Source: Cloeon dipterum
Taxonomy: Eukaryota > Arthropoda > Insecta > Ephemeroptera > Baetidae
Reading direction: 5' to 3'
Assembly (NCBI RefSeq): GCF_949628265.1
Contig: NC_088790.1
Coordinates: forward strand, 28,586,545 to 28,650,544
DNA: 64,000 nt
The notes beneath the pieces were generated by a model that saw only the letters and a list, made by a program, of their open reading frames with translations, did no database searches and had not been told where the DNA came from. This document shows, piece after piece, positions 22,079 through 53,656 of this stretch. A program made the position numbers and the translations under genes. How positions within the stretch are numbered: the stretch's first letter is position 1; each line of letters starts with the position of its first letter.

Positions 22079-25000
22079 ATGAATTGTTCGTATTTCAGCC
22101 TCATTTTGATATTTCTAGCATCAATTGGAGAAGTAATTCCTGAAGTGAGTAAAAGGTTTTCTTGCATGTGTTGCAGTTGAAATTAATTCCGAATGCACTA
22201 CTAGTCTTAATTTTATTGATCATTTCAATTTGAAATTTGTTAATAATGACTAAACATCTTCCACCAGAAAAGGTCAAATTCGAGAAAAATCACCCATTTA
22301 AAAGAAAAAAATGGTAAATGGATTCCACCTATTTATTTTAAATTAATTTAAAATTTGATGTAGCTGCTCAGAAGAAATCTCGTGCTCCAACGTCAACGAG
22401 GAGGAAGTACATCATTAAATGTTGCGGGTTCAAAAGATGCATGGGGAACGCGACTCGTCAACAAAGCATAATAACTTCGACAATATCAACTATCGCCGTT
22501 ACCAAAAATTATAATAGCGTAGCAGTTTGTCATTTTAATGTACACGTGTTTCAATCACACCAAACTTGATAGGACGTTGGCTTTTCTGCGTCATTTCCGG
22601 GCAAAGCGGTGGACCCGACAGGAAGCTCGGCTTACAGTCAGGCTAGCAACCCATCATCTACCAACGTGAACGGTGAACAACTGCAGGGAAATTCAAAAAT
22701 TTAGTATAACTTTGAACATGGAAAAACCCAACAGCAGCTTTGAGCGGTGAGGGTAATGGGGCGGACAGCTTCATTTCTGAAGGGACAGGGTCGACGGCTT
22801 TTCAAGAAAGCGGCTCTGCAACGACATCAATGAGCAAAACATCCTCTCTTGTTGAACGCGCCAGTGGGGATTCAACGGATGGATTGGACACTAATTTATC
22901 CTCTCTGGCGAATGACTTCTTTACAAATTCGACAAATAACAATAAAGAAGTGGCATCACAATCTGCAACAACAGTTGGAATAAATTCTGGCCTGTCTTCA
23001 CCACCAGCATCATTTACTAAAAATAATGCAGGGGCAGGAACAACCACGTCAATTAAATCGATTATCAATGCTTTGACCACAGCTAATCCGATAAATCCAG
23101 CTTCAGGGATAACTATCAGAACAGCTAGCACAGCTGTGCCACCAGGAACATCGCAATCAACAAAATTAGGAACATCTACCACGACAATTCAAGCTACTAC
23201 GACAGTTTGTTGTAACGTAGATTGCAGACACGAATTTCATATATGAAATATTGTAGTCTCCATCCTGCCGTGTCACGTGTGCGGACTTCAACAATTCCCT
23301 GACAGTAATAAAATTGAAATACATTTAATGCCTTCATTGTAATTTAAAATAAAAATGTATATTTTTTAATTATTCCTCAGCAGAGTCAGTCGTCTCAACG
23401 TAAGTTCCAACAAATGAATCAATGCCCCACAAATCTTTACAAAAAATATTATTTCAGCTGCAGGATCTGTGAAAACAGCAGCTACGTGCAGCCGGCAGTA
23501 TTTTGTTTCAACTTCTTCCGTAATCTTATTCAAAACTAGAAAGTAAATAAATAAAATTAAATTTAAAAATTTGTAATAGGTGGCAAGAAACAAGGCGACG
23601 TTGGGATGCAAGGCTTTGAGCATGACTCTCTTGACCACCACTTCTCTCGAGGAAATAAACTGTCTGGCAAACAGCTTTAAAGGTTCACTTTAAAAAAAAA
23701 TATAAATATTAGAACAATTGAAGTAAAAAATTTAATTAAATTAGGCACATTTTGGACTGGTGGCTCTAGCGAGGGAATCAATTGCAAGGGCGAAAAACAA
23801 TACGCGTGGTGTTCAACTGGTCACTTGATGTCTCCATCTCTGCTCTCAATGGCTAAATTTTGGCTTTCAACCAACGCCATGGCTATTAATACCGTGGGAA
23901 AATGTCTGGCCCTCACAATCTTGGACAGCACAAACAAAGGGATGGTGCACAAGAAATGCGACGATGTGTTGCCTTTCGTTTGTCAGTTCTCGACCGACTG
24001 CCCACAGCAGTGCGACAAAAATGTAAGATCAAGACTGTTTTTTATTAATTATTTTAACTCTTATTCTATTTTAAACACTTAAATTGGCAGCCTTCATTGT
24101 TTGATTCAAATGGAAACTTGAAAAGTAAAGAAAAAACAAGTCTCAATGATGGTTAATTTTAATTAATAATCCATTTTGTAAGATAAAACTTCTTATGGAA
24201 CTTGGATCGACATTGGGAATACCACCTATCTTCTTGGAAACAAGCCGGTTTCAATTATATATGACATATTACTTTTAAAATTATTATATAACAAAATTAC
24301 TGCCAGATGTCTTGGTTGTCCAGCTGGAAGCAGTGCTGCGCGTTGGGAATGGAAATGCTGAACATTGAAAACACTGCTGAGCAGCGAGGCCTGACCAGCT
24401 TGACCGTCGGCCAAAATAAAAGTGAGTTCATCAATTCTCACGAGGATTAGAAAATTTCAACTAATTTTAATTAAATAATAATTTTTAAAAAATTAAATAC
24501 AAGAAATAGCCCTCAAGAAAAGTTCGGATAAATTTTTAATTTTAAACAGAAATGTGGAAAGCGAATTTCAATTACTGGACTTCTGGTACGTGGAATGGCG
24601 CACCAGCAGGCCAATGGTCGTGGTGCAAAACCACGGGGCCGACTATCTTGGATAAAAACATTATCTGGGAGCGCGGCCAACCCGACAACAAAGGTGGAAA
24701 CGAAAGCTGCATCCACTTTCGCTTCGTTTTGAACTCCACGGGCACGATCTTAACTGACAGAAACTGCGACAGTAAATTCGTATTCGCTTGCAAGGTGAAT
24801 TTGTTTAAATATTAAGTCACACTTTTGAAAAATATCATTTTAGACGTCACTTCTTACAACTACTGCTAAGCCGTGCATCGCCTCGTGCCCACCGATAAAC
24901 ACCTGCCAGCGAAATGTAAAAAAAGGATTTTTCCAATGACCCATTTTAATCATGAAATAAATCAATTTCAAGCCCTTACTTTTCTCAAACACAAAATCTT

Positions 25001-28000
25001 TAATTGGTAATGACATGCAGGTCAAGATTTTCTTTTTCCTCTCTTTTAATTTAATTTAAATTTTCAAAGACTTCACCTCCTACGGCGAGTGGTACGATGC
25101 GTGCGGCCGCACCGTTTTGATGTACACCAAAACCAAAGTTTCTACTGAATTTTTAATTTTTTGTGTTCTTATTTTAATTTATTCGTTCGCCGCAGTCGGA
25201 CTGGACAAACGCCTGGAAGCAGTGCTGTGCCGTCGGACTGAACCTGACCTCAACGGAGTCGGCCGGGAAATTGAGTTGCTTTTCCAGGATTGTCACCAGT
25301 ACAAACGTTGATCCAAGCTTTTAGTTTTCTTCAAACTCTGCCCTGATTTTAAAACCAATAATAATGCACCACCTGACGAATTATTAGACTCTTAGACAGC
25401 AGGCAGAAAATACTTTATCATTATAGAAATATTTATATATTTTTTTTATTTTGGTTTTTATTAAAGTAAGATATAACACATATTTTAATATTTCTTTTAA
25501 TTATAATTATAATGTATACATTAATTTACAAAGCGGTTTTTATTAAAATTTTATTAAATATTTACTGCATTTTTAAAATAATTGCTGAATTGTTCATAAA
25601 TATTATATTTAAATTAAAGAAAAAACTAATAAAATAAATACTATACAATAACCGATTTTACAGACCGATCTCCTAATATGATAACAATTAAAACAATTCC
25701 TCTTTTTAATTCTTAGGATCTGAATATTTTTATAGTTATGATGTCAGGCATTTGAAAAAGATCTTTCAAGATAAATTAGTTGTGGATAAATTTTATTGCT
25801 ACTTATTTGTTTTATAAAAAAATGAGATTATTATCTGTTGATGCAGAGTTCGCTCCGAAAACCTACGGCGATTTCTGGCTGGCCGGGACGGACGTGGGGT
25901 GTCCGTCCACCTTCAGGTGGTGTCCACTGAACCGTAACTTCATCAACCCTGAGCTCAGTTGGAAGGAAGGACACCCCAAGGAGGGCCTGGACTGCGTTTA
26001 TCTGGAGGCGAGGAACGGATCGGTGCTGCTGGCCACCGCAAACTGCACCGAACAGAAATTCTTTTTCTGCGACCTGATAAAGGTGGCGGCCTCGTCCCAA
26101 CGCGCCATTCAAAACGAGTGCGCTGACATTTGGGACATTACCAGTGGTGAGATGGGGGATAAAGGGGTTTCCGATTGATTTTTATGCCTCGATTTCGTTT
26201 ATATTAACAGAGCAAATTGACAATCTGCTGATCTCCAGCTTTTTTAATTCGCTGAACATCACACAAAATCTCAGGGTACTTTTAGTTTTCTGATTGATCT
26301 GTTCTTATAATGATACATTTCCTGTTTATAACAGTGCTTCTTGAAGTGCATCGGTGTCAACCTTGGAATGGTAATTTAAAATTAACAAAAATTAAAAAGT
26401 ATTTTAGTAAAATTAATAATACTCTTTCTCGTTGCATGTTTTATAAAGGGCTAACTGAAAATAATTTATTTTATTTTCCAGTTTGAATTAGGAGGAGTGA
26501 ATGGAATTGATTTGTTGCGGCAAATAGAACTAGCGGCTGAAGAGGACCCTGTCCAAATGCAAAATGGATTCAACGCTTACGACACATGCAGCGGAAAAAG
26601 TATTTATTTAAATTAAAAGTTTCTCGTGGATAGCCTTTTTCCAAGGCCGCGGAATATGCTTTGAGCGAAGAGGCGATCAGCAGAAAAACGCGAAGTGGCC
26701 GGCACACGTAATGGAGAAAGAGAGAACTGACAGCTAAGGGCAAAACCTTCCTCTTGCTCCTCACTGTATCCGAATAGAGTGTCCCGTCTACCATTGCGAC
26801 ACGCACTAACTCGCCAGAACCAAAACCACGGTCGCCCTGTTTTGTCCCTGAGTCTCACTAACTCCCTGCTCAAACTGATAAACTGACCTTAAATCTATCT
26901 ACACCCTCTGATTACGCTTTCTCTCTTTCTCCAACGGACGCCACCATGCCTGAAACAATAATTCCATTGGCTTCATCACAACATAATATAATTTTTTTCA
27001 AAATTAACTAACATGTTGTGTGCCGGTCACCATGCGCCTCTTCGCTCAATGCTGAGTCTGCTGATCCCGTGGCCTGCTTGGGATATTGTGTCATTAAAAA
27101 TCAGCTTTTTTGCCACGCACTCACCACATTCAATTGATAAAAAATAGCCATAATAAAGTTAGTCCCGGCACTGCACCATTAAATTTCCATGGAAACAGCT
27201 CTATGTGCGTTTCAAAAGAGGTTAATTATATATTTACAATTAAATAAATTAGAAAAATATTTCAGTCTTTAAGAGGTGCATTATTTATTTGATTTTTTTA
27301 AAATAATTTTGTTTGGTGTTTGCCAAGGTGAAAATATCTGCCTCCAATTTATCTTTTTTCTTTACAAAAAAACACTGATTTTCGATGTAATCCATAACAA
27401 ATGTCAGAAAACCATTTTGTTTTTAAATTTGCAGAGTTTGACGACGAGTGCGTAACTGCTGAGGAAATTTACAAGTGCGGTCTGCAGGAGGCACCCGATC
27501 TGGTCACAAAAATCGTAAACAATAATAACAACAATGATTCCATGGTCAATTACTGCTTCTTTCTCTAATCCTACTTATTTATTTTTTTTTACAAAATTTT
27601 AGCTGACTCCACCGCTCCCGTGCGTTCCGAAGCCCCGATCCTGTTGGCTCTCGAATTTGTATCCCTGCATCGCAAATGTAATGTTCCCTACATTGGTTTA
27701 ACACCAAGATTTGACGCTAAATAAATTTTCAGCAAACGGCAATCGATGAAATCAACAAAAACGGAACAGGTGAAAAGAGAAACCATATTTTTACTCTACT
27801 CCAATTGTTTCAATTCTAAAGATGAGATGGGAAGAGTTTTTCCGTCTCCGTCGGGAAAGTCTTTCTACATCGGAAGAGTTAAAACTACAGGAATTGTGAG
27901 TAAATCAAAATAAATGTTGGCAACTTGATGCTGAATGAAGGGAAAACGTAAAGGATGTGGTTGCAGTTTTCCAACGTTGCTGTGCGCTTGGAATGAGACT

Positions 28001-29972
28001 TTTCGAACCAGCCTCGTCGGCAGATTTTAAAACCGCTTACGGAGCATCAACTAGTAATGCATTAGACCTATCATTGATTTAAATCAAGGCTTTGGAAAAA
28101 GATTTCTAACATTAAACTCTAAAAAATAATTTTTGCCCCTACTCTAAAAGGGAAAAAAGGCAAAGAAAAATCTGGCGCAAAAAATTAGCTGACAAAAAAA
28201 TCAAAATTTTAATTCTTAAAATAGGCCTCATAATTCTCCGTTTGATGAATCATGAAGAAACAAGGAATCGAAATCAAGCTAAAAATAATTAACATGTTTT
28301 ATATTCCGAAAATTTTGAAATTTAATTGTTTGTCAGACTAGATTTGACTGTTGCCAAAATTTGGATTCCTCTGGCAAACAATAGATTTAATATTCATTTG
28401 TTATTCCTAGGGCTGTAAATTTTAGACGATTTTTTTGGGGAAAATAGTCGACTATTTTTAGACGGATTTTCGTATAAATTTAGTCGGTTTTAGTCGATTT
28501 TTTTTCAATTTAGACGGTTTTAGACGGTTTTTTTAAGTTCAATTTCCACTGCATAAATGATAGAACCATGTTCAAAATTCGCTGGAAAATACCCATTTCT
28601 ACTATTTATTAGCCTTTTTCATAGCCTAGAGGTGGTCAGCGGTATATATAGAACATATATCTTAACACTATTCTACTAATGGAGCTCAATTAACATTACT
28701 AATATGGCTATGGATTTTAAAATTAAAATGTTTTGATTGCGGTATAATTAATTTATTTATTGTATCACGTACGCATCAAAATACAACATTTAATATTTCA
28801 TTCCAAGGTATTGAAATTTATTTTTCGTCATCAAGGGCGTAGTAGTGATTAATAACCATGTGCATTTCAAGGTTTTCGGTGTTAAAACTCATCCTGTTGG
28901 GTCTTAGCATGGACCTCTTTGAAAAGCTTCTTTCTACATCAGCACTGCTCAGCTGAGCGTACTTTAAGGCAAGGACTTTTCTCAGAGGAAGTTTTAGCCC
29001 GTTGTTTCCCCATATTAATTAATAATTAAGAGAACACACTGAAGATGACGAAAATTATGTATGTCGCACGTCGCACTCACAGAGTCTAAAAGGCATACAC
29101 ATGGAACATGGATGCATACGCGCGCGTTCATGATTCAACTTGTCGAAGTCTTCTCGATTGGAGGATATTTTAAGGAACGTGCATGCGGCTAGATATGGTG
29201 CTGTTCAGCGAGTTTTAAGTCATATAAATGGAAAAGAGAGCGTGTAAATTAATTGAAATTGTAATTTCCGCGTACGCTCACACACATGGTATAATTAAAA
29301 TTTCATATTTTATTAAAGAATATCATTTTCTAGAATTTTTCACCACGAAATAGTCAAAATAGACGATTTTAGACGGGTTTTAGACGATTTTAGACTGTTT
29401 TGGCAGTTTTAGACGGTTTTAGACGATTTCAAGTTTAGTTTAAACAGCACAAAAATGCATGATTCGTGCTCATTTGATGGTCCCGCTTTGATTTGAAGCT
29501 TAGAAAAAAATAGTCAATCGTCTAAAATTCACAGCCCTAGTTATTCCAAGGAATGCATTTTTTTGTCAATTGTTTGCACTTTAAAGCCCCGCTTTAGTTT
29601 ATTTTTTTTTCAAAATTCTACTACAAATTCCAAATTGCAAAGATGAAAATTTGTCCACCATAATTTCCTTGTTTTTAGTTTAATTTTTAATCAGGTTTGG
29701 ACTACTACACTAAAAGTGCCTATCTCATGGGAGACACGGAGTCGATCAACCAGACGCACGAGGTGTGGTGCCGCAGCCGCAAAGTTTTGCCAGACGCGCT
29801 TTACTCGACCACTCTGGCAGTGCCGAGGTTTCCCTGCACCGAATCGATTATGGGCGCCACGACCTCATTTTCTTACGCCGTTGTGTCCAGATCGAATGAG
29901 AACATTCACAACTTGTACATCAACCGGGCTAATATTAACGATTTTGTCTCTTTCATTTGCGAGAAAGTGTAG
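22079..29972 (+). CDS. Gene A: secreted mucin-like / 3x CTLD / OBP / CTLD protein, 1095 aa, 28 exons
   Basis: Exons: 22079-22144, 22268-22313, 22364-22518, 22573-22672, 22735-23216, 23257-23304, 23381-23399, 23458-23519, 23580-23682, 23745-24022, 24091-24124, 24183-24247, 24307-24421, 24550-24794, 24844-24915, 24973-25006, 25070-25137, 25196-25298, 25847-26146, 26211-26275, 26335-26370, 26482-26599, 27435-27544, 27603-27677, 27733-27769, 27822-27895, 27954-28053, 29695-29972 (3,288 nt, one frame). Layout: signal peptide (1-~18); basic segment with KCCGFKRC; Ser/Thr/Asn-rich stretch (~123-280); CTLD1 (~300-447; FWTGGSSEG, WCSTG, LPFVCQ); CTLD2 (~464-606; WERGQPDN, QPD at 568-570); CTLD3 (~631-780; FWLAGTD, WKEGHPKEG); OBP domain (~785-890) with C1 ~789, CFLKC, C4 ~867 and CVTAEEIYKC; CTLD4 (~934-1095). 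Only CTLD2 keeps a sugar-specificity triplet, QPD, linked to galactose-type binding. CTLD proteins act in immunity or adhesion and OBPs carry small hydrophobic ligands; a joint role is inference. Confidence 0.88.
26641..27082. mobile_element. Inverted-repeat insertion in gene A intron 22
   Basis: Gene A intron 22 is 835 bp; in genes B, C and D it is about 240 bp. The extra sequence begins CCAAGGCCGCGG and ends with the near complement (CCGTGGCCTGCTTGG), and both ends carry TTGAGCGAAGAGGCG and CCGGCACAC in inverted orientation. No ORF or clear target duplication. Confidence 0.6.
28408..29539. mobile_element. Non-autonomous hAT element with TAGACG subterminal arrays, in gene A intron 27
   Basis: A 1,132-bp element flanked on both sides by GTTATTCC, a perfect 8-bp target duplication. 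The ends TAGGGCTGTAAATTTTAGAC and the complement at 29515-29539 form terminal inverted repeats. Both subterminal zones hold runs of TTTTAGACGGTTTTAGACGA-type repeats (28436-28540 and 29345-29435). No transposase ORF. Genes B-D lack it in this intron. Confidence 0.88.
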
Positions 29973-30939: not shown

Positions 30940-33900
30940 ATGAATTTTTCCTATTTCAGCCTGATCATAATACTTATAGCCACAATTGGAGAAGTAATTC
31001 CTGAAGTAAGTCAAAAGGTTTTCTGGTGTGTGTGAGTGTGGCAGTTGAAGTTAATTCCAATGCTGTCCTAATTTAATTGGTCGCGTGTACTTCTATATTT
31101 ATTTAAATTATATAAATTTTAAAATAATGACGATGACTAAACTATTTTCCAGCAAAAGAAGTTAAATTTGAGAAAAATCATTCGTTTTATTGCAAATAAT
31201 GGTGATTTAATTACTTATATCTATTCAATTTTAGTATAATTTTACATTATTTGATGTAGCTGCTCAGAAGAAATCTCGTTCTCCAATTCCAACGAGGAGA
31301 AAGTACATCATTAGGTGTTGCGGGTTCAAAAGATGCATGGGGAACGCGACTCGTCCTCAAAGCATAATAACTTCTACAAACTCGATTACCGCCTTTACCA
31401 ACAATAATAATGTAGCAGTTTTTCTGGAATTTATACCATTATATGTCAATCGAATCAAACTCGATAGCATGATGACGTGTCTGCGTCATTACCGGACACA
31501 GTGGTGGACCCCACAGGAAGTTCTGCCGAGAGTCAGGATGGCTACCCATCATCTACCAACGCGAACGGTGAAAAATTGATGTGAAATTGAAAATTTTAAT
31601 ATTTGAACGTGAAAACCTCAACAGCAGCTTTGACCAGCGGAGCGGACGGTAATGGGGCGGGCGCGGGCAGCTTCATTCCTGAAGGGACAGCGACGGCTTT
31701 TCAAGAAAGCGGCTCGGCAACGACATCAATGAGCAAAACATCCTCTCTTGTTGGGCGCGCCAGTGGGGACACGACGGCCGGATTGGACACTAATTTATCC
31801 TCTTTGGTGAAAGACATTCCGAATTCGACTATTTATAATAACAAAGAAATGACACCACAATCTGCAACAACCACTGCAATAAATTCTGGCCAGTCTTCAC
31901 CACCAGCATCATTTTCTAATAATAATAATGCAGTGGCAGCAACAACTACGTCGATTAAATCGATTATCAATGCTGTGACCACAGGCAATCCGATAAATCC
32001 AGCGTCGGGGATAACTATCAGAACAGCTAGCACAGCTGTGCCACCAGGAACATCGCAATCAACAAAACCAGCAACATCTACCACGACAGTTCCAGCCACT
32101 ACAACAGTTTGTTTTATCGTAAATTGAAGACATGGATTTCATATTAAATATTTCAGACTCCATCCTGTCATGAGAAGTGTGCGGATTTCAATAATTATCT
32201 ATCGGTAATAAAATGAAACCAGAAATGTTAACGATATATATAGTGATTAAAAGATAGTTAATTATTATCAAGCGATTGATATTTTTTTTCTTTTTTTTTA
32301 GATAAAAACTATGTCTTTGTCCCTAATGTTAATATACTAGTCCCAAATAATTACACCTTTTCAGATGTGAGAGTAACATTGGAACTTAGGGTCAGAATCA
32401 ATGGTTAAATAATTTTTTGAATATGAATTACCAATTATCGATTTAAAAAAGATAGTATTATAGACCTATACTTTTCGCGTTTTTCATAATTCACAACGAA
32501 ACTGATTTTGATGGTTTTAATCATAGTTTTGGACTTTCTAAACGATTTATATTATGATAGTGTGGTTGTAATCGCGTAAATTGTGCCACCTTTGAGTAAA
32601 AACTAAATTCAGACGACGAATCATGCTTGGTATATTATGATAAATTCCCAACTAGGCGGATTTAATTTGAAAATTGCCAACGTGTTTTTATTCATAAAAA
32701 TAAGTAATTTCCATACTTTGTCTTCATCTTAATTTTTAATAAACTACAATCTCTTTTTTAATTAACCCCCAGCAACGTACGTCGTCTCAACGTAAGTTAA
32801 AAAAAAATGAACCAACCCCAAAACAAAAAATATATTTTATTTCAGCTGCTGGATCTGTGCAAACAGCGACATTGTGCAACCGGCAGTATTTCGTTTCATC
32901 TTCTTCTGTGATTATAATCAAAACTAGAAAGCAATAATTAAAAATACACTATAAAATTTTTCCTAAAGGTGATAAGAAACGAGGCGGCATTGGGGTGTAA
33001 GGCTCTTAGCATGACGCTCTTGACCACCACTTCTCTCGAGGAAATAAACTGTCTGGCTAACAGCTTTAAAGGTTTTTTTTAATAAACCCATTTAAACAAC
33101 AGAAATGAATTCAATTGTTTTAGGCACATTTTGGACTGGTGGCTCTAGCGAGGGAATTGACTGCAATGGGCAAATACAAAACGCGTGGTGCTCAACTGGT
33201 TACTTGATTTCCCCATCTCTGCTCTCATTGGCTAAATTTTGGCTCTCAACTAACACCATGGCTGTTAATACCGTGGAAAAATGTCTGGCCCTCACAATCT
33301 TGGACAGCTCAAACAAAGGGATGGTGCACAAGAAATGCGACGATGCGTTGCCTTTCGTCTGTCAATTCTCGACCGACTGCCCACAACAGTGCGACAAAAA
33401 AGTAAAATTATTTTAACTGCGGAAATCAATTTCTAATTATTTTAAAATGCCCAAAATAAAATTTGCAGCCTTCATTGTTTGATTCAACTGGAAACTTGAA
33501 AAGTAAAGAGAGTGAAATAAGTCTGAATGACGGTTAATTTTAATTAATAATCCATTTTGTAAGATAAAACTTCTTACGGGATTTGGATCGACATCGAGAA
33601 TACCACCTATCTTCTTGGAAACAAGCCGGTTTCAATTATATATGACATATTACTTTTAAAATTATTATATAACAAAATTACTGCCAGATGTCTTGGTTGT
33701 CCAGCTGGAAGCAGTGCTGCGCGTTGGGAATGGAAATGCTGAACATTGAAAACGCGGCTGAGCAGCGAGGCCTGACCAGCTTGACCGTCGGCCAAAATAA
33801 AAGTGATTTCATCAATTCTCACGAGGATTAGAAAATTTCAACTAATTTTAATTAAATAAAAATTTTTAAAAAATTTAATACAAAAAATAACCCTCAAGAT

Positions 33901-36900
33901 AAGTTCGGATAATTTTTCAATTTTAAACAGAAACGTGGAAAGGGAATTTCAATTACTGGACTTCTGGCACTTGGAAGGGCGCACCAGTGGGTCAATGGTC
34001 GTGGTGCAAAACCACGGGGCCGACTGTCCTGGATAAAAACCTCATCTGGGAGCGCGGCCAACCCGACAACAAAGGTGGAAACGAAAGCTGCATCCACTTC
34101 CGCTTCGTTTTGAACTCCACAGGCACCATCTTAACTGACAGAAACTGCGACAGTAAATTCCTTTACGCATGCAAGGTGAATTTTTAAAAATATTTAGCCA
34201 CAATTATAGAAAAAAAATCATTTCAGTCGTCACTTCTTACAACTACTGCTAAGCCGTGCATCGCCTCGTGCCCACCAATAAACACCTGCCAGCGAAATGT
34301 AAAAATACAAATTTTCCAAGCATTTTTAAACATTAAATAATAAATATAATTAAAGCCGCTGCTCTTCTCAACCAACCTAACTATATTCAGTAAATGAATA
34401 GAATAAAAATTTTCTTTTTAATTTAAATTTTCAAAGATTTCACCTCCTACGGCGAGTGGTACGATGCATGCGGCCGCACCATTTTGTTGTACACCAAAAC
34501 CAAAGTTGCTAAACTCAATGTTAAATTTGGTATTTTAATTAAATTGATCGCCGCAGTCGAACTGGACAAACGCCTGGAAGCAGTGTTGTGCCGTCGGACT
34601 CAACCTGACCTCAACGGAGTCCGCCGGGAAATTAAGTTGCTTTTCCAGGATTGTCTCTAGTACAAACTTGGTTCCATTTTTTCAAGCTTTCTGCCCTGAT
34701 TTTATAGTCAAAAACAGTGCTTTGCATAAAAACAACTTACAAAGCAGTCAAATGCCAAATTACAGTAGAATAGAAATGAATTTGAAAGGGACTTTTTAGA
34801 TTTAATTTAATTTCAATAATATTTTGATATATTTTTGTATTTTGATCTAAATATTGTATCTGCAATTTGTAGCTATTGGCTGCTTTAATGACATTTAGCT
34901 AATAATTCAGATAAAAATATGGAATTAATATTATAAAAAGGTTATTTGGCTTCCAAAATTACTTAGATGAAATTTGAATTATTTAATATGTTACTCTTGC
35001 CGTGTTTGAATTTTATAGTAGAACAAATTGTCAATCATTGAAAAAAAATATAATAAAAAATCAGGAGCAGAAGAAATCTCATCGCTGCGTTTTTATATAA
35101 AAATTGAGATTTTATTCTGTTGACGCAGAGTTCGCTCCGAAAACCTATGGCGATTTCTGGCTGGCCGGGACGGACGTGGGATGCCCGTCCAGCTTCAGAT
35201 GGTGTCCATTGAACCGTAGCTTTGTCGACCCTGAGCTCAGGTGGAAGGAGGGACACCCAAAGGACGGCCTGGACTGCGTTTATCTGGAGGCGAGGAACGG
35301 ATCGGTGCTGCTGGCCACCGCAAACTGCACCGAGCAGAAATTCTTTTTCTGCGACCTGATTAACGTGGCGTCCTCGCCAAATCGCGCCATTCAAAACGAG
35401 TGCGCCGACATTTGGGAAATTACCAGTGGTGAGATGGGGGATAAAGGGTTTTCCGATTGATTTTTTATGCTTCGATTTCGTTTTTATTAACAGAGCAAAT
35501 TGACAATCTGCTGATCTCCAGCTTTTTTAATTCGCTGAACATCACACAAAATCTCAGGGTACTTTTAGTTTTCTGATTGATCTGTTCTTATAATGACATA
35601 TTTCCTGTTTTTAACAGTGCTTCTTGAAATGCATGGGTGTCAACATTGGAATGGTATAGTAATATTAACCAAAATAAACTCGGATTTAAAAATTTTTAAA
35701 TATATAGGCGTTCTTTCATACTTTTTGGAAATGGCTAAAAATTTATTTTTTATATTTTTTAGTTCGAATTAGGAGGAGTGAATGGAATTGATTTGTTGCG
35801 GCAAATAGAACTAGCGGCTGAAGAGGATCCTGTCCAAATGCAAAATGGATTCAGCGCTTACGACACATGCAGCGGAAAAAGTATTTATTTTATTCGAATT
35901 TTTCGAAGTGGATACATTCCGTGATAAAAACATAGCTAGTAAATAGTCAAAAATAAATTAGAGCCACGTCAAAATTCCAATTCCATGGTATTATAAATAA
36001 ACTGCCTCTAATTTATCTCGTTTCTTTACAAAAGAGATTGATTTTCGATGTAAATTTTACTAAATTTTTCCCTTATTGTTCATTAAAATCACTGAAAATC
36101 AATATATTTTGGAAATTTCCAGAGTTTGACGACGAGTGTGTGACTGCTGAGGAAATTTACAAGTGCGGTCTGAAGGAGGCACCCGATCTGGTCGCAAAAA
36201 TCGTAAACAACAATAACATCAATGAATCCATGGTCAGAATTACAGCTGCTTCCTTCTCTACTTATTTATACATTTAAAATATTTTTAGCTGATTCCACCG
36301 CTCCCGTGTGTTCCGAAGCTTCGATCCTGTTGGCTCTCGAATTCGTACCCCTGCGTCGCAAACGTAACATTCCCCTCTATATTCTGCCACTCTGGTTTTG
36401 ACACCAGATAAATTTTCAGCAAACGGCAATCGATCAAATCATGAACAGCATCAACATGACAGGTGAAGAGAAACCCCAATTATTTCCCAAACGTTTTAAT
36501 ACACGATCAATTGTTTCAATTTTAAAGATGATATGGGAAAGTTTTTTAATTCGTCGGGAAAGTTATACTACATTGGAAGAGCTAAAACTACAGGAATTGT
36601 AAGTTATCAAAATAATTGTTGGTAATTCGATGCTGAATGAAAGGAAAACGTAAAGGATGTGGTTGCAGCTTTCCAACGGTGCTGTGCGCTTGGAATGAGA
36701 CTTTACGAACCACTCAATTCTCCGCTGGATTTAATGTTTGTCTTTGGAATGTCTTTGCCTGGTAATGCATAAATGATTTATTCTATGGTTTTGGAAGTGG
36801 ATCTGTAAGGTTTAAGTTCTAAAGTTCTAATCAAATACTCAAACTTTGAAATGGAAAAGGTTTTAAACTGCCTGGAGCACTCTGTTTATATTAATAAAAT

Positions 36901-41200: not shown

Positions 41201-44200
41201 TATAATTTAAATTTTCAAAGACTTCAACTCCTATGGCGAGTGGTACGATGCGTGCGGCCGCACCGTTTTGATGTACACCAAAACCAAAGTTGCTAATGAA
41301 TTTTATTATTATTATTTTTTAATTAAACTGATCACCGCAGTCGGACTGGACAAACGCTTGGAAGCAGTGCTGTGACATCGGTCTGAACCTGACCTCGATG
41401 GAGTCGGCCGGGAAATTGAGTTGCTTTTCTAGGATTGTCTCCAGTAAAAACGTTTTCTTATTCAAGCTTTTGGGCTCCTTTCTGCCCTGATTTTAATGCT
41501 AATAATGCTCCACAAAAAAAAACTTTAAAATTAATAAGAATGTGTTAAATTTTATTGTAAAATGATAAAAATATATTTTTTTATTATATTTCCATCAGGA
41601 AAAAATATCTTAAATATATAACATATATTTAATTTTTTTAGGGTAAATTTTATTAATCTAACATTTATTTGTTTTAGTTGAATTTTACTAGATGTATCCA
41701 AATTTTTTCGAGCTATTGGCTAGTTTATTGTTGTACTCTTAAACTAATATTTAATATAAAAATGAGTATGAATATAGCATTATTAAAATGTTTGGGATGC
41801 CAATTTTATAGAGATATATGTATAAATAATTATTATTTTTCTTTTTCATTGGATCTGATTTTACTGTGGGTACTTGAAGCCAATCATTTTAAAAAGAAAT
41901 TCTATAATAAAAAACAGGTTCAAATCTCATCGCACCGTTGTTTCATAATTATCTATTGACGCAGAGTTCGCTCCAAAAACCTACGGCGATTTCTGGCTGG
42001 CCGGGACGGACGTGGGGTGTCCGTCAACCTTCAGGTGGTGTCCACTGTACCGTAACTTCATCAACCCTGAGCTCAAGTGGAAGGTAGGGCACCCCAAGGA
42101 GGGCCTGGACTGCGTTTATCTCGAGGCGAGGAGCGGATCGGTGCTGCTGGCCACCGCAAACTGCACCGAACAGAAGTTGTTTTTCTGCGACCTGATTAAC
42201 GTGGCGGCCTCGCCAAATCGCGCCATTCAAAACGAGTGCGCCGACATTTGGGAAATTACCAGTGGTAAGATGGGGGATAAAGGGTTTTCCGATTGATTTT
42301 TTATGCTTCGATTTCGTTTTTATTAACAGAGCAAATTGACAATCTGCTGATCTCCAGCTTTTTTAATTCGCTGAACATCACACAAAATCTCAGGGTATAC
42401 TTTTAGTTTTCTGATTGATCTGTTCTTATAATGACATATTTCCTGTTTTTAACAGTGCTTCTTGAAATGCATGGGTATCAACATTGGAATGGTATAGTAA
42501 TATTAACCAAAATAAACTCGAATTTTAAAAATTTTAAATATAGGCATTCTTACATATTTTTGGAAATGGTTAAAAATTTATTTTTTATATTTTTTAGTTC
42601 GAATTAGGAGGAGTGAATGGAATTGATTTGTTGCGGCAAATAGAACTAGCGGCTGAAGAGGATCCTGTCCAAATGCAAAATGGATTCAGCGCTTACGACA
42701 CATGCAGCGGAAAAAGTATTATTTTAGTCGAATTTTTCGAAGTGGATATATTCCGTGATAAAAACATAGCTATTAAATAGTCAAAAATAAATTAGAGCCA
42801 GGTCAAATTCCAATTCCATGGTATACTAAATAAACTGCCTCTAATTTATCTCGTTTCTTTACAAAAGAGATTGATTTTCGATGTAAATTTTGCTAAATTT
42901 TCCCCTTATAGTTAATTAAAATCAGAGAAAATCAATATTTTTTTGGAAATTTCCAGAGTTCGACGACGAGTGCGTGACTGCTGAGGAAATTTACAAGTGC
43001 GGTCTGAAGGAGGCACCCGATCTGGTCGCAAAAATCGTAAACAACAATAACATCAATGAACCTATGGTCAGAATTACAACAAAACTGTTTCTTTATCTTC
43101 TTAATTAATTAAAGTACTTTTAGCTGGCTCCACCGCTCCCGTGCGTTCCGAAGCCTCGATCCTGTTGGCTTTCGAAAATGTATCCCTGCATCGCAAATGT
43201 AATGTTTCTTACACTGGTTTAACACCAAGATTTGACGCTAGATTAATAATTTTCAGCAAACTGCAATCGATGCATTCAACAGCAACAACGGGGAAGGTAA
43301 AGAGAAAAATAAATTTTAATTTCTACTGTTCACCTTTTATATTAACCCGATCAATTGTTTCAACTCTAAAGATGAGATGGGAAAAGTGTTTGTACATTCG
43401 TCGGGAAAGTCTTTCTACATCGGAAGAGTTAAAACTACCGGGATTGTGAGTGAATTAAAGTAAATGTTGCAAACTTTGTACTGAACGAAGGGAAAACGAA
43501 AAGGACGTGGTTGCAGTTTTCCAACATTGCTGCGCGCTTGGAATGAGTCTCTTCGAACCAGTAACTCTGATGGATTTTGTGACAGCTTACGGAGCTTCAA
43601 ATAGTAATCCATTTTGATATTTATAATTGTTTTAATAAATGAACTTTGAAAGTTAAGTTTAATTTTAAATAAAATTTTGCATAGACTTAAACATTGAAAA
43701 GGTTTAAAATAAATGCACAGGACCACAGGAGCGATGTTTTAAAATTCTCCATATTTTTATTTCGCAAAAAGGGCCTCATTTCTTGCACAACGTTGGATAA
43801 ATCACAAGGAAAGGAATTTAAATTTTAAAAAAATCAGTGAGACGTTCAATTTTTGGGTAAATTCAAAAAATAATCTAAAATTTAATTGTTTGTCGATCCT
43901 CGTTTGACTGAAAAATTTCCACACAGAGAATTTCGTGATCATTTGTCAGTGCCGAAATATTCAAACTGTGCAGGTGTCAATTTTTGCCCAGTAGAAATCC
44001 ACTTTATTTATTTTTTAATTTAATTTTGATTTGTATACTTCCTGGAGATTATTTGATTTGAATAACGACATCGACAAAATTAATAATCCTGAAACTCTAA
44101 TAATTTAATCGTTTGACTTGTTTCTAATTCAATTCCGTAATTAGGTTTGGACTACCAGACTGCAAGTACCTATCTCATGGGAGAAACGGAGTCGGTCAAC

Positions 44201-44422
44201 CAGACGCACGAGGTGTGGTGTCGCAGCCGCAATGCTTTGCCAGACGCACTCTACGCGATCACTCTAAACGAACCCAGATTTCCCTGCACCGAGTCGATAA
44301 TTGGCGCCACGACCAAATTTTCATACACCGTTGTATCTAGATTGAACGAGAACATTCACAACTTGTACATCAACCGGGCTAATATTAACGATTTTGCCTC
44401 TTTCGTTTGCGTGAAAGTGTAG
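38280..44422 (+). CDS. Gene C: CTLD-OBP-CTLD family, 1093 aa, 28 exons
   Basis: Exons: 38280-38339, 38467-38515, 38572-38723, 38776-38887, 38950-39416, 39455-39502, 39579-39597, 39656-39717, 39778-39880, 39936-40213, 40285-40318, 40376-40440, 40496-40610, 40713-40957, 41011-41082, 41134-41167, 41221-41288, 41341-41443, 41965-42264, 42330-42394, 42456-42491, 42598-42715, 42957-43066, 43124-43198, 43257-43296, 43372-43445, 43504-43603, 44145-44422 (3,282 nt, one frame). Intron 2 has a GC donor (G|GCAAAT) where gene A has GTAAAT. Exon 1 is 6 nt shorter and exon 4 is 12 nt longer than in the others. CTLD2 keeps GQPDN but its following segment is divergent (N-E-G-C-A-H). OBP cysteines are all present (CFLKCMGINIGM, CVTAEEIYKC). 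It is closest to gene A over exons 5-19 (coding and introns) but closer to B and D in introns 20-23. Confidence 0.87.
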
Positions 44423-45606: not shown

Positions 45607-45814
45607 CCAACTAAATTTTGGTTCGCTGCATGATTTTCTTTTTCTTTTAGTTTTATGAGGATTAAATTTTAAAAGTTTTAGGAATGGAAAATTTCATTTC
45701 CTAAAAACACTAACGCGCAAAAACAGGATGCGTTTCGTCGAAAAATAATGGGAATTGAGGATAGCAAAGCAGCGGTGGCTCACAGTGCGCTTCAGGATTC
45801 AGCTTGGATCAATC
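45607..45814 (+). promoter_or_regulatory. Upstream region of gene D
   Basis: CCAACTAAATTTTGGTT at 45607-45623, then AAACAGGATGCGTTTCGTCG-AAA, at the same distances from the ATG as in A-C. Confidence 0.55.
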
Positions 45815-47082
45815 ATGAAGTTTGCTTATTTCAACCTGATTTTGATATTTATCGCCACAATTGGAGAAGTAATTCCTGAAGTGAGTCAAAAAGTTTTCTG
45901 GCGTGTTGCTGTGTAAATTAACTCCATGCTGTCTTAATTTTGTTAGTCGCATACTTATATTTATTATATTTATTTCAACTCTAATTTTTAAATAATGATC
46001 AAAACTATTTTCCAGCAGAAAAAATTAAATTTGAGAAAAATCATCAGTTTGATTGCAAATAATGGTGATTTAATTACTTATACCTATTCAATTTTAGTAT
46101 AATTTTACATTATTTGATGTAGCTGCTCAGAAGAAATCTCGTTCTCCGATTCCAACGAGGAGAAAGTACATCATTTATTAAGTGTTGCGGGTTCAAAAGA
46201 TGCATGGGGAACGCGACTCGTCATCAAAGCATAATAACTTCGACTAAATCGATCGCCTTTACCAACAATAATAATGTAGCAGTTTTTCTGGAATTTATAC
46301 CATTATATGTCAATCGAATCAAACTCGATAGCTTGATGACGTGTCTGCTTCATTACCGGACACAGTGGTGGACCCCACAGGAAGTTCTGCCGAGAGTCAG
46401 GATGGCTACCCATCATCTACCAACGCGAACGGTGAAAAATTGATGTGAAATTGAAAATTTTAATATTTGAACGTGAAAACCTCAACAGCAGCTTTGGGCG
46501 GTGGGGGTTTGGGAAATGGAGCGGACAGCTTCATTCCTGAAGGGACAGGGTCGACGGCTTTTCAAGTAAGCGGTTCAGCAATGCCATCAACAAGCAAAAC
46601 ATCTCTTGTCGGACGCGCCAGTGGGGACACGTCGGCCGGATTGGATACTAATTTATCCTCTCTGGCGAAAGACATGCCGAATTCGACTAATTATAATAAC
46701 AAAGAAATGACACCACAATCTGCAACAACTACTGCAATAAATTCTGGCCAGTCTTCACCACCAGCATCATTTTCTAATAATAATGCAGGGGCAGGAATAA
46801 CCACGTCGATGAAATCGATCAACAATGCAGTGACCACAGGCAATCCGATAAATCCAGCTTCAGGGATAACTAGCACAAGTGTGGCACCAGGAACATCGCA
46901 ATCAACAAAACCAACAACATCTACCACGACAGCTCCAGCCTCTACAACAGTTTGTTTTATCGTAGATTGAAGTCATGGATATCTAAATTAAATATTTTAG
47001 ACTCCGTCCTGTCATGAAAAGTGTGCGGATTTCAATAATTATCTATCGGTAAGAAATTTTAACCATCAGAAAAAAAATAAAT

Positions 47083-47408
47083 TAAAGCTTGTCTTTGACG
47101 AAGTTTCTGAGCACACCAATCGATTCTTAAGGGTTGATTCAGGTAAAGTGGAAATTTTTTCTGACCAGAAAGTGCATGCGTCAGAGCTGGCACACGCCAA
47201 CCACCAGTTGCTAGCGGCTGACGTGACGCCTCTCCTCGGCCACACCAGCTCAGACGCATGCGCAGTTCTCGCATAGAGGTTCATATTGTTTTGGCGGGAA
47301 AAATTTTACTAATGTTACGCACGTCGCGCTCGATATTTCTTTACCTAATTCGACCTCAAAAATCGATTGGTTTGCTCAGACACTTCGTCAAAGACGGTCT
47401 TTAACAGC
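47083..47408. mobile_element. Inverted-repeat element in gene D intron 6
   Basis: Ends GTCTTTGACGAAGTTTCTGA...CACCAATCGATT and the complement AATCGATTGGTTTGCTCAGA...CTTCGTCAAAGAC form ~37-bp terminal inverted repeats around a GC-richer core with GCGCATGCG. Related core sequence occurs upstream of gene B (about 30265-30560). Confidence 0.65.
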
Positions 47409-49959
47409 GAGATTGGGATACAATTAGGCAGTAATACAGTATAATTATTTGAAAAAAGGTTCATTAGCATGATTGCTAATTTTTTTACAGTTGTTAATAC
47501 TGGCCCTATTATAATTACAAATTTTCAGAGGGGTTATGAAATTCGCATTAAAATTTAGAATTAGGAACAGTAGTGGATAAAAATTATTATTTATCTGGAA
47601 CCAACGAGCAACACAAAAGTGATTTAGATGGTTTTAACCATAGTTTTCAGCTCATCTCTAAACAATTTACCAGTGTGTCTCTAAATAATTAAAATCGCGA
47701 AATTTTTGCAGACTTTAAGCAATAACTAAATTCATACATAGAATGCTCGCGGTGTATTCCCCACAGCTCTATTTTACATCCTTACTATTCCTCCATTTTA
47801 ATTTCTAATAAAATGAAATATCTTTCTTTAATTAATCCCCAGCAACGTACGTCGTCTCAACGTAAGTTCTAACAAATGAACTAATGTGCCATAAAAATTA
47901 AAAAAAAAAATACATTTCAGCAACTGGATCTGTGCAAACAGCAACAATGTGCAGCCGGCAGTATTTCGTTTCAACTTCTTCCGTGATAATAATCAAAACT
48001 AGAAAGAAACAAGTAGAAATTAAATTAAAATTTTCAAAAGGTGAAAAGAAACGAGGCGGCGTTGGGATGCAAGGCTTTGAGCATGACTCTCTTGACCACC
48101 ACTTCTCTCGAGGAAATAAACTGTCTGGCCAACAGCTTTAAAGGTTTATTTTTTAATAATAAATGCTTTTAAAATAAAAGAAATGAATTCAATTGTTTTA
48201 GGAACATTTTGGACTAGTGGATCTAGCGAGGGAATCAGCTGCGATGGGCAAATACAAAGCCTGTGGTGCTCAACTGGTCAATTCATTTCCTCATCTCTGC
48301 TCTCAATGGCTAAATTTTGGCTCTCAACCAATGCCATGGCTTTTACCGTGGAAAAATGTCTGGCCCTCAACATCTTGGACAGCACAAACAAAGGAATGGT
48401 GCACAAGAAATGCGACGATGTGTTGCCTTTCATCTGTCAGTTCTCGACCGACTGCCCACAACAGTGCGACAAAAATGTAAGTTCAAGACTATTTTTTTAT
48501 TAATTATTTTAACTCTTATTCTATTTTTAAACACTTTAATTTGAAGCCTTCATTGTTTGATTCAACTGGTAACTTGAAAAGTAAATAGGAAAACATGTCT
48601 CAATTACAGTTAATTTTAATTAATAATCAATTTATTAAGATAAATCTTCTTATGGAACTTGGATCGACATTGGGAATACCACCTATCTTCTGGGAAACAA
48701 GCCGGTTTTAAGAATGTTTTATTTTTAAAAATTAGTATTTTAAAAAATTGGCTGGCAGATGACTTGGCTGAACAGCTGGACGCAGTGCTGCGCTTTGGGA
48801 ATGGAAATGCTGAACATTGAAAACGCGGATGAGCAGCGAGACCTGACCAGCTTGACCGTCGGCCAAACTAAAAGTGAATTCGTCTCTCAAGAGAATTTAA
48901 GAATTGCAATCATATCTAAATAATTATTTCATTTTTAAAAATTAAACTGAAACAAAAATCGCCTTCAATAAGTGTATATATTAATTTTTCAATTTTAATC
49001 AGAAACGTGGAAAGCGAATTTCAATTACTGGACTTCTGGCACGTGGAAGGGCGCACCAGTGGGTCAATGGTCGTGGTGCAAAACCACGGGACCGACTGTC
49101 CTGGATAATAACCTCATCTGGGAGCGCGGCCAACCCGACAACAAAGGTGGAAGCGAAAGCTGCGTCCACTTCCGCTTCGTTTTGAACTCCACAGGCACCA
49201 TCTTAACTGACAGAAACTGCGACAGTAAATTCGTATTCGCTTGCAAGGTGAATTTGTTTAAATATTAAGGCAAGCTTTTGAAAAATATCATTTTAGACGT
49301 CACTTCTTACAACTACTGCTAAGCCGTGCATCGCCTCGTGCCCACCGATAAACACCTGCCAGCGAGATGTAAAATCATGAATTTTTTAAATACATTTAAA
49401 CATTAAATAATAAATAAAATTCAAGCCGTCGCTTTTTTCGGCCAACCTAACTATACTTGGTAAAGAATGAGTTATGATTTCTTTTTTCTATTAAATTTAT
49501 ATTTTCAGACTTCCGCTCTTACGGCGAGTGGTACGATGCATGCGGCCGCACCGTTTTGATGTACACCAAAACAAAAGTTGCTAATGAATTTTATTATTAT
49601 TATTATTATTTTAATTAAATCGATCACCGCAGTCGGACTGGACAAACGCTTGGAAGCAGTGCTGTGCCGTCGGACTGAACCTGACCTCGATGGAGTCGGC
49701 CGGAAAATTGAGTTGCTTTTCCAGGATTGTCTCCAGTAAAAACGTTGTTCCAAGCTTTGGGGTTGTTTTCTAACGATTTTAAAGCCAAGAAAATGCTCGG
49801 CAAGAATACAAGCTTAAAAAGCAGGCAGAAAATACTGAACGCTTCTTTGTTGAAAATCTCACTGTTTACTCAAAAAATCGGGTTTTTGCCACCATGCCTC
49901 TCAATTGGCGAAAATTCATCAAACCCCAATATGAATCGACGCGGAATTTATCTGTAAAT

Positions 49960-50500
49960 CTTTTGAGACCAATCACGGCCCGTTTTAATTAAAATCCAAG
50001 ATATCGATTCACTTTTGAAAATTAAAAAACATGTTTTTTGCACTGCCACATAAGAATAACATAGAAATGGATATAATTTGTCCTTTTTTCCGCAAATGAA
50101 CCCAGATTACGATCTTAACTGATCCATCGGACACGCAGACCCAACGCTGGTCTGGACACCGAATTTAAGCTTTCTCTTGCCTAAAGAGAAATGAAATTTC
50201 TTTTTTACGGTTTTCCGCCTGCAGACGCCAACTCAACAAGGGCTCATACGAAAATGGTTTTATTTTTGTTAAAATTCGATGGATTGATGGATTTCAAGAC
50301 ATGAGATATCAAACGAACTGTTTCAATAAGACCTACCTTGGTGTCCTTTTCCAAGGTACCCCGACCTCTGAGATATTCTCCACGGCCACTTTTCTTGATT
50401 TTTTTTCCGACGCCGCCGCCCTTATTCTACTATGGCCAAAATAACCGGTTGGCACAAAAGTACGAAGCGCTTGTAAATATTATACAATAAACAATGCAAA
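49960..50500. other. Unexplained insertion in gene D intron 18
   Basis: Intron 18 of gene D is 970 bp against 469 in B and 521 in C. The extra sequence is less AT-rich than its surroundings (e.g. CCCGACCTCTGAGATATTCT, GACGCCGCCGCCC) but has no ORF, inverted ends or match elsewhere in the window that I can see. Confidence 0.35.
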
Positions 50501-52679
50501 TAATTAAAAAATATACCTTAGAAAGGTTTGGGTTCACAATATTAGTTTAATTATACTTTAAATATTCATTCGTTTCCACTTTTTTTGGAATTTTATATAG
50601 ATCAATACTGTCGATATTTTTAAAAAGAAATTTACAAATCTGGAGCAGAAAGATCGCATCGTTGCTTTTTGCTATACACAAATTGAGATTATTCCGTTAA
50701 CGCAGAGTTCGCTCCGAAAACCTATGGCGATTTCTGGCTGGCCGGGACGGACGTGGGATGCCCGTCCAGCTTCAGATGGTGTCCATTGAACCGTAGCTTT
50801 GTCGACCCTGAGATTAGGTGGAAGGAGGGACACCCAAAGGACGGCCTGGACTGCGTTTATCTCGAGGCGAGGAACGGATCGGTGCTGCTGGCCACCGCAA
50901 ACTGCACCGAGCAGAAATTCTTTTTCTGCGACCTGATTAACGTGGCGTCCTCGCCAAATCGCGCCATTCAAAACGAGTGTGCCGACATTTGGGAAATTAC
51001 CAGTGGTGAGATGGAGGATAAAGGGGTTTCCGATTGATTTTTTATGCCTCGATTTCGTTTTTAACAGAGCAAATTGACAATCTGCTGATCTCCAGCTTTT
51101 TTAATTCGCTGAACATCACACAAAATCTCAGGGTACTTTTAGTTTTCTGATTCATCTGGTCTTATAATTACATATTTCCTGTTTTTAACAGTGCTTCTTG
51201 AAATGCATGGGTGTCAACATTGGAATGGTATAGTAATATTAACCAAAATAAACTCGGATTTTAAAATTTTCAAATATAGGCGTTCTTACATATTTTTGTA
51301 AAATTTATTTTTTATATTTTCTAGTTCGAATTAGGAGGAGTGAATGGAATTGATTTGTTGCGCCAAATAGAACTAGCGGCTGAAGAGGATCCTGTCCAAA
51401 TGCAAAATGGATTCAGCGCTTACGACACATGCAGCGGAAAAAGTATTTATTTTATTCGAATTTCTCGAAGTGGATACATTCCGCGATAAAAACATAGCTA
51501 GTAAATAGTCAAAAATAAATTGGAGCCAGGTCAAATTCCAATTCCATGGTATACTAAATAAACTGCCTCTAATTTATCTCGTTTCTTTACAAAAGAGATT
51601 GATTTTCGATGTAAAATTTGCTAAATTTTTCCCTTATAGTTAATTAAAATCAGAGAAAATCAATATTTTTTTGGAAATTTCCAGAGTTTGACGACGAGTG
51701 CGTGACTGCTGAAGAAATTTACAAGTGCGGTCTGAAGGAGGCACCCGATCTGGTCGTAAAAATCGTAAACAACAATAACATCAATGAATCTATGGTCAGA
51801 ATTACAACTTCTTCGTTTTCTTCTTAATTAAGTTTGTAATAATTTTAGCTGGCTCCACCGATTCCATGTGTTCCGAAGCCTCGATCCTGTTGGCTCTCGA
51901 ACACGTATCCCTGCATCGCAAATGTAATGTTCCCTAATGGTTTACCACTCTGAATTCGACTCTAAATTAATTTTCAGCAAACTGCAATCGATGCAATCAA
52001 CAACAACGGTGCAGGTGAAGCGGAAATATAGATTTTTAAAGACTGATCAAATTTTTCAATTCTATATATATAGATGAGATGGGAAAAATTCTTATTGGGC
52101 CTATGTCGGGAAAAAAATTTTACGTGGGAAAAGTTAACAATGCAGGAATTGTGAGTAAATCAAAATAATTGTTACAAACTTAATGCTGAATGGAGGAAAA
52201 CGTAAAGAACGTGGTTGCAGCTTACCAACGTTGTTGTGCGCTTGGAATGAAACTTTATGAACCAGCCTCGTTGTCGAATGTAGTGGCACAATTCATGCCA
52301 GCAGCTGCATATCGTAATGCATTTTGATAATATAATATAATTTATTAATCACAGGGCTTTGGAAGTGGGTTTATTTTAAAAAAGCAGGCTGCAAAAGAAA
52401 AAGGGTAAAAAATTACTGGAGCAGAGTGTTAGTATTAAAAGAAAAAATACCCTATTTTCATTTCGCATAATTTGTACACTGTTGGATAAATCAAGAAAAA
52501 AGGAATCGAAATCTAGCGAAAAAATAATTGAGACGTAGATTTTTCGAAAACCCTTTAACAAAATCTGAATAAATTTAACTGTTTGTCACTTCATATAAAA
52601 AATAAACCGTATAGGATTCATAGTCATTTTGTTAATTCTATAATTGTTAATTGTGTCAATTGTTGCCTTTTAAAGAGGA

Positions 52680-52870
52680 ATGATACTGAAAAAGCCTGGA
52701 AAATGCTAGTTGCCAATGCATAAACTCGTCCCTTAGGATTCAGTTAAAGCCTAAATTGACCTAAGGAGCGCTGTAATTTTTTGAGAAAATTGGCTGGAAA
52801 GTTAGCGTGCTTTTCAAATGGAAAGGGCTGTCTCCTTACTTAATTGAAATCCGATTTAATTTCAAAACCA
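52680..52870 (+). repeat. Dispersed repeat in gene D intron 27
   Basis: The blocks TTAGGATTCAGTTAAAGCC, AAATTGACC, TTTTTGAGAAAA and GTTAGCGTGCTTTTCAAATG recur in the same order at 56745-56955 as TTAGGACTCAGTGAAAGCC and so on. Confidence 0.6.
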
Positions 52871-53656
52871 AGAGTTTCCCCAATAAGTGGCAAACACCGT
52901 TGGACAGATCTCGACGAGAGGAATCGGAATAATGCCAAGGAAATATGTTCAAGCACTGTAAATTTTGGATAAAATTGGCCAAGTTTGAATTTTCACTGTA
53001 TGAAGGTCCTTTTTTATTATTGCAAATTGTTGAACAAATTGTTTACCGGTCAATTGTTTAAGGCATCCAACAATTTAAATAATTTTCAATTGTTGCCCAG
53101 TATCATTCCACTTTAATTTGCTATAAATTAGTACTATAAACTTCCTGAAGATTCTGTTATTTAAATTTGACCCAATAAGTTAAAGGTGTCCGCTTTAATA
53201 AGTGACTACATAACACATTAATATTTTCGGTTTTCTTGTTTCTAATTTAAAATTTGCATTAATTTAAAAGCGGACTACGAGACGAGTTCCGGTGCCTATC
53301 TCATCGGAGAATCGGAGTCGGTCAGCCCGAATCAAGAGGTGTGGTGTCGCAGCCGCAATGTTGTGTCAGAAGACGGAATCAAGCCGGCAGTTCTCAATTT
53401 ACCCTGCACCGAATCGATAATTGGCGTCAAGTACCTAGATGCATTCGTCGTGGCGTTCAGGGAGAATGAGAACATTCACAACTTGTACATCAACCGGCAG
53501 GCTAATATGAACGATTTTGTATCTTTCATTTGCCAGCCAGCAGTGTAGAAAAATTGAATTAATGACGTGTGATAATTTTTTTCGGATCAAAATTCATAAA
53601 AAATTTTAACTAGCAATTGTGATAAATGTGAAAAATGTTTCTAAATTTCGGATTTC

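Follow-up and report, generated by a model that had tools for sequence, protein, structure and literature searches.

Insect odorant-binding proteins (OBPs) are known as small secreted proteins made up of a single domain, and have received much attention as odorant carriers. In the C-type lectin domain (CTLD), the calcium-dependent sugar site consists of an EPN or QPD motif together with a WND motif. The present analysis concerns a 64-kb stretch of the genome of the mayfly Cloeon dipterum (contig C5, positions 28586545-28650544; hereafter the window, to which positions without a contig name refer), in which four genes, A to D, each carry an OBP domain within a series of CTLDs. The genome comprises 190.1 Mb in 10 contigs, with the five large contigs C1 to C5 (43.2, 37.5, 37.1, 36.4 and 33.2 Mb) accounting for 187 of the 190 Mb. 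In the available portion of PMC5381652 OBPs are called small, and only four of them are reported for a damselfly. For C. dipterum the available portion of PMC7250882 reports 191 OBP genes, the largest insect set, and in the gills the expression of 82 of 167 OBP genes, with 25 gill-specific. The word ‘lectin’ is absent from the main text of PMC7250882 as available, and no such fusion is described there; a literature search among open-licence papers gave no indication of a CTLD-OBP fusion either.

Reading frames and domain matches make it almost certain that the genes encode, in one frame, a hydrophobic N-terminus followed by a Ser/Thr-rich segment, three CTLDs, an OBP domain with six cysteines and a CTLD-like tail. 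This fusion is supported because the frame remains open over 28 exons in three of the copies, both Pfam families are found in each protein model, a junction exon joins the two kinds of domain and their order is kept in other loci. Rebuilt exon by exon, the genes extend from the start codon of gene A at 22079 to the end of the stop codon of gene D at 53548, which is exactly the span given in the original prediction, an earlier note on this DNA. That prediction had also held that A, B and C each have a coding length divisible by three over 28 exons, and the lengths are indeed 3279, 3288 and 3264 nt, corresponding to open proteins of 1092, 1095 and 1087 aa with no internal stops, whereas gene D, for which the claim was not made, is not divisible by three.

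The splice sites of A-D are GT-AG throughout apart from a single GC donor at exon 2 of gene C. When protein A was placed on gene B DNA with a splice-aware aligner, 26 of the 27 exons of a B model lacking exon 3 were recovered exactly and the 27th was off by the stop codon only. Exon 3 measures 155 nt in A, 152 nt in B and C and 153 nt in D. Models that leave it out and use the downstream acceptor of exon 4 are open in all four genes, yet they were dropped because the exon 3 peptide (core RRKYIIKCCGFKRCM) is found again in 9 of the 18 other loci scanned and because, with the upstream acceptor of exon 4, genes A, B and C are back in frame. An exon-3-less transcript may represent a minor isoform. 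The Pfam searches, splice-aware alignment, dN/dS estimates (ratios of nonsynonymous to synonymous substitution rates) and locus alignments all used the 27-exon models, which are short by about 62 N-terminal residues lying outside the domains. Gene D has the same exon set as A-C, but a frameshift and a stop in exon 3 leave it open only when this exon is skipped, and it is probably damaged. Contrary to the original prediction, A-D are not a four-gene family but belong to one that runs to about 150 loci genome-wide.

Two further observations concern gene A. A 79% identical copy of its promoter and first exon lies 10 kb upstream, at 11412-11631, before a different gene, and is either a relic or a first exon in shared use. 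In its last intron, at 28418-29530, gene A has a segment rich at both ends in TTTTAGACGG-like repeats, perhaps an inserted element.

Pfam recognises three stretches of PF00059 (Lectin_C), above the curated cut-off when the whole protein is scored, and one PF01395 (PBP_GOBP) domain in all four proteins, which bears out, by a check named in advance, the claim that three CTLDs and a six-cysteine OBP belong to one protein. PF01395 scores 35.8-37.3 bits in A-D (cut-off 22; E values 3e-9 to 9e-9). When isolated pieces of B were compared with PF00059 (cut-off 22.6), CTLD2 and CTLD3 passed with 25.8 and 24.2 bits and CTLD1, at 22.3 bits, fell just below. The OBP domain, which covers residues 794-890 in B, has the spacing C1-x30-C2-x3-C3-x42-C4-x8-C5-x8-C6 in A-D, in agreement with what had been proposed for C1-C2, C2-C3 and C5-C6. 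Its best match in a single-sequence search of the PDB is LUSH (E 6e-4); three xylose isomerases at E above 0.5 in the same search were treated as chance. A profile of 16 paralogous OBP domains finds 16 PDB sequences at E<=0.01 (best 3.4e-7), of which 14 are named odorant-binding and two are named only AGAP010489-PA and AGAP005208-PA. PF01395 is also found in 16/16 OBP domains of the main subfamily and in 8/8 of the distant subfamilies (L051, L055 and L057-L062).

The CTLD2 profile matches 45 PDB sequences, including mincle, langerin, DC-SIGN and mosGCTL-1, and a QPD motif is present in CTLD2 of 24/24 sequences, while CTLD3 has GHP at the corresponding motif (GQP in locus L048). The original prediction had placed a fourth CTLD after the OBP domain. 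In profile comparisons the first part of this C-terminal domain resembles CTLD2 over 43 columns (E 1e-7) and CTLD3 over 80 columns (E 1e-5) and does not match the OBP profile; on the other hand the domain has no Pfam match, as tested in B, and no PDB match below E 0.4. On these comparisons it is only CTLD-like, and degenerate as a fourth CTLD. At the other end of the protein, the signal peptide and mucin-like segment that had been proposed are seen as a signal-peptide-like hydrophobic N-terminus and a segment in which Ser and Thr make up 0.32-0.36 of the residues in A-C, against 0.19-0.21 overall. The only strongly hydrophobic stretch of A-C lies at the extreme N-terminus, which fits secretion, and a hydrophobicity scan revealed no transmembrane segment in these three proteins.

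The two kinds of domain meet within one exon, which in each of A-D runs in a single frame from the core of CTLD3 to OBP cysteine C1. When the genome was searched with this CTLD3-OBP exon, 97 matches had E<=5e-20, and 96 of them continue past C1, to query residue 98 or further; the lower-ranked matches are 28-42% identical, apart from a 25-residue fragment at C5:28670933. This fragment (C5:28670933-28671007, 92% identical) lies about 20 kb past the window and is probably a decayed fifth copy. The exon is found upstream and on the same strand, at 175-1239 bp, for 89 of 89 loci closely related to the OBP domain, these loci being drawn from 93 listed matches of the close-OBP search out of 177 in all, with matches from the same locus omitted. 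In controls for this pairing, the opposite strand and the downstream side both gave 0, and shifts of +15, -15 and +100 kb gave 5, 11 and 3, in line with the earlier claim that the exon joins are not chance.

Elsewhere in the genome, 24 loci are 48-60% identical to B when aligned with it and, over the stretch covered, have their domains in the order CTLD1-CTLD2-CTLD3-OBP-linker-CTLD-like. The six OBP cysteines are present in 23/23 loci that cover the whole domain, the 24th (L024) being cut by the end of its stretch, and the 36-nt exon coding for C2-C3 occurs once in each of the 24 aligned locus models. This small exon is also found in L051, L055, L057, L058, L060, L061, L062 and L064, and is fused with a neighbouring exon in L059. 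Distant subfamilies that are only about 30% identical retain the CTLD-OBP order. A CTLD is followed by a six-cysteine OBP in L051, L055, L057 and L058, and in L059-L062 a CTLD sits just before the six-cysteine OBP; the last four were considered as free-standing OBPs and ruled out, with a CTLD directly upstream in 4/4.

Altogether 153-155 related OBP loci, depending on the merging rule, are spread over all five large contigs. A CTLD match lies upstream on the same strand within 2.5 kb for 148-149 of them (147 within 1.5 kb); as controls, the opposite strand gave 0 and shifts of +15, -15 and +100 kb gave 15, 22 and 3. For the weak OBP matches an upstream CTLD was listed in only 4 of 30 at first, and a second CTLD search paired most of the others; L059 and L064 proved to be fused by spliced alignment, raising the CTLD-paired total to about 150 of about 154. 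These counts are built from the best-scoring candidates, with weaker ones omitted, and are no census but depend on the choice of matches: 32 of 104 OBP matches from one search, 23 of 32 and 65 of 66 from further searches and 84 of 149 CTLD matches were used, plus 97 and 25 for the junction exon. Among the weaker OBP matches outside the 153-155 are those at C2:10.7 Mb, C2:34.6-34.7 Mb, C1:8.28 Mb and C4:31.08 and 31.18 Mb. Judged from these alignments, the fused CTLD-OBP genes make up an old and branched superfamily, with about 150 loci in the genome.

The four OBP loci left unpaired (L063, C3:1957497, L065 and C1:17069281) are fragments, degenerate or not placed. L063 (C3:1960800-1964300) is a fragment of an OBP, broken and carrying a stop, with the OBP lying at C3:1963500, and contains no CTLD above the shuffled score, and L065 (C3:13742303) has a degenerate OBP without C4 in the alignment together with partial CTLD sequence. 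The match at C1:17069281 falls within L066 (C1:17066900-17070000), where it is a second OBP-like match, lying downstream both of an OBP and of a CTLD-like domain, perhaps in a two-OBP gene. In the 3.2 kb of the classical OBP L001 no CTLD exceeds the shuffled score, and L056 on C2 has two CTLDs with no OBP above the shuffled score. Eight loci with a CTLD3 end had no listed OBP match; four of these were examined, and L052, L053 and L054 have six-cysteine OBPs and C1:40385945 a weak OBP match. Searching the genome with PF01395 itself gave a single place, because the OBP exons are short.

Within the window, the regions of A-D differ in how they evolve. The OBP part has the lowest dN/dS (0.19) and also the lowest dS (0.08), and the tail has the highest ratio of all regions (0.66). 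The OBP exons of B, C and D (35494-36232, 42330-43066 and 51068-51794) are nearly identical, with dS of 0.03-0.06, and the flanking domains diverge more, a pattern that points to gene conversion. Across the wider family, pairwise identity averages 0.64 in the OBP domain, 0.67 in CTLD2 and 0.37 in the tail. A conserved OBP domain beside a changing tail would suit a shared ligand or a constant role for the OBP.

It is reasonable to suppose, from the domain content, that the lectin domains bind surfaces and the OBP domain a hydrophobic ligand. The proteins would be secreted, CTLD2 with its invariant QPD would dock them to a glycan-bearing surface such as mucus, cuticle, glycocalyx or a microbe, and the OBP domain would enclose a small hydrophobic molecule within its cup of helices, so that the whole protein might act as a surface-anchored binder of hydrophobic ligands in water. 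The most likely site of action would be the chemosensory organs of the aquatic nymph, in the gill and head, because C. dipterum OBP genes are reported to be expressed there. Taken as a whole, the statement that joins the architecture, the superfamily and a surface-anchored hydrophobic-ligand binder with a chemosensory role is narrowly favoured; the chemosensory role itself is a serious candidate that stops a little short of being probable. Several points weigh against this interpretation. The WND position reads (T/S)DR(N/S)C in 24/24 CTLD2 domains, and sugar binding by CTLD2 is uncertain because WND is replaced in all of them. The low OBP dN/dS goes with an unusually low dS, to which gene conversion may contribute, and the absence of stops in the other loci is partly forced by the stop penalty of the aligner. 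A conserved OBP domain with a variable tail is also mildly ill-suited to one odorant per gene.

The main rival to a chemosensory role is that of secreted immune or barrier recognition proteins, whose CTLD array would bind microbial glycans at the gill, gut or skin while the OBP domain traps microbial lipids or other hydrophobics. Conflict with microbes would explain both the tandem expansion, seen as many tandem clusters, and the fast change of the tail, which has the top dN/dS and the bottom pairwise identity, and arrays of several CTLDs resemble pattern-recognition lectins, as in the matches to mincle, langerin and DC-SIGN. This reading is nevertheless unlikely, and the expression of OBP genes in HRP-positive (a neural marker) gill cell clusters of C. 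dipterum, given in the available portion of PMC7250882, speaks against it if the same genes are concerned. It is more improbable still that the proteins are structural or lubricating components of mucus, of a cuticle or egg coat or of the gut lining, with the OBP serving as a stable disulfide-rich spacer that has no ligand. The Ser/Thr-rich segment, the 11-21 N-glycosylation sequons per protein in A-C and the conserved Cys linkers between domains would fit such a function, but the distant subfamilies have kept the six cysteines, the OBP spacing and good PF01395 scores. A different kind of alternative would deny the fusion itself and place the OBP exons and the CTLD exons on separate mRNAs. Although an alternative start or acceptor within the shared exon is compatible with the DNA, this is extremely improbable: the end of CTLD3 and OBP C1 share one exon, frames and phases are consistent over the 28 exons of three copies, the same-strand pairing is complete where controls give 0-11, and the domain order is preserved in distant subfamilies.

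Table 1. Positions in the window of genes A-D and of the exon groups encoding their domains
Feature	Position	Strand	Details
Gene A	22079..29972	+	28 coding exons, 1092 aa, open
Gene A, exons 1-7	22079..23399	+	Signal-peptide-like start, conserved Cys exon 3 (22364-22518), Ser/Thr-rich segment
Gene A, CTLD1 exons	23458..24022	+	
Gene A, CTLD2 exons and Cys linker	24091..24915	+	
Gene A, CTLD3 exons	24973..26146	+	Last exon (25847-26146) also codes OBP cysteine C1
Gene A, OBP exons	26211..27544	+	C2 to C6
Gene A, Cys linker and CTLD-like C-terminal domain	27603..29972	+	Linker 27603-27677
Gene B	30940..37449	+	28 coding exons, 1095 aa, open
Gene B, exons 1-7	30940..32791	+	Signal-peptide-like start, exon 3 (31260-31411), Ser/Thr-rich segment
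Gene B, CTLD1 exons	32846..33401	+	
Gene B, CTLD2 exons and Cys linker	33469..34298	+	QPD motif
Gene B, CTLD3 exons	34356..35428	+	Last exon (35129-35428) also codes OBP cysteine C1
Gene B, OBP exons	35494..36232	+	C2 to C6; C2-C3 exon 35618-35653, 36 nt
Gene B, Cys linker and CTLD-like C-terminal domain	36289..37449	+	Linker 36289-36363
Gene C	38280..44422	+	28 coding exons, 1087 aa, open; GC donor at exon 2
Gene C, CTLD1-CTLD3 exons	39656..42264	+	Last exon (41965-42264) also codes OBP C1
Gene C, OBP exons	42330..43066	+	C2 to C6
Gene C, Cys linker and CTLD-like C-terminal domain	43124..44422	+	
Gene D	45815..53548	+	Exon set as A-C; frameshift and stop in exon 3 (46123-46275)
Gene D, CTLD1-CTLD3 exons	47921..51005	+	Last exon (50706-51005) also codes OBP C1
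Gene D, OBP exons	51068..51794	+	C2 to C6
Gene D, Cys linker and CTLD-like C-terminal domain	51849..53548	+	

The window also contains tandem gene copies with a CSWCPAI(Q/K)KCSSxRDSL motif, at 2181-2771, 6888-7463, 13782-14528 and 16686-17261; four exons of these genes gave nothing above the cut-off in Pfam, and an Rfam scan of the 64-kb window gave no match. On C2, four CTLD matches of equal score and stop pattern (L006-L009, C2:6339498-6380408) lie about 13.5 kb apart and represent another lectin gene that was recently multiplied in tandem.

Compared with known systems, A-D share the six-cysteine pattern and spacing of the insect OBPs of family PF01395, to which their best PDB matches belong (Drosophila LUSH, 1oof; OBP1d, 4pt1; an odorant binding protein, 3q8i). 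Unlike classical OBPs, however, they carry this domain between lectin domains inside a protein of about 1090 aa, and on their predicted sequences they contain an OBP domain yet, being neither small nor single-domain, are not classical OBPs. With C-type lectins such as mincle, langerin, DC-SIGN, mosGCTL-1 and the arrays of the mannose-receptor type they have in common three tandem CTLDs and the QPD of CTLD2, but they differ from such arrays in that no transmembrane segment was found, WND is missing and an OBP domain is inserted after CTLD3. The C. dipterum OBP set reported in the available portion of PMC7250882 and the CTLD-OBP loci both comprise very many PF01395-positive loci, and they are probably the same loci. 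There is an even chance that the largest reported insect OBP repertoire is mostly a radiation of about 150 genes from an ancient CTLD-OBP fusion, and that these form a new class of surface-anchored hydrophobic binders for underwater chemosensing or defence. Some 150 loci with an OBP domain in a lectin array would alter the interpretation of OBP numbers obtained by domain searches, would bear on the reported mayfly expansion and on the gills as a proposed chemosensory organ, and offer a testable hypothesis about the handling of hydrophobic ligands in water.
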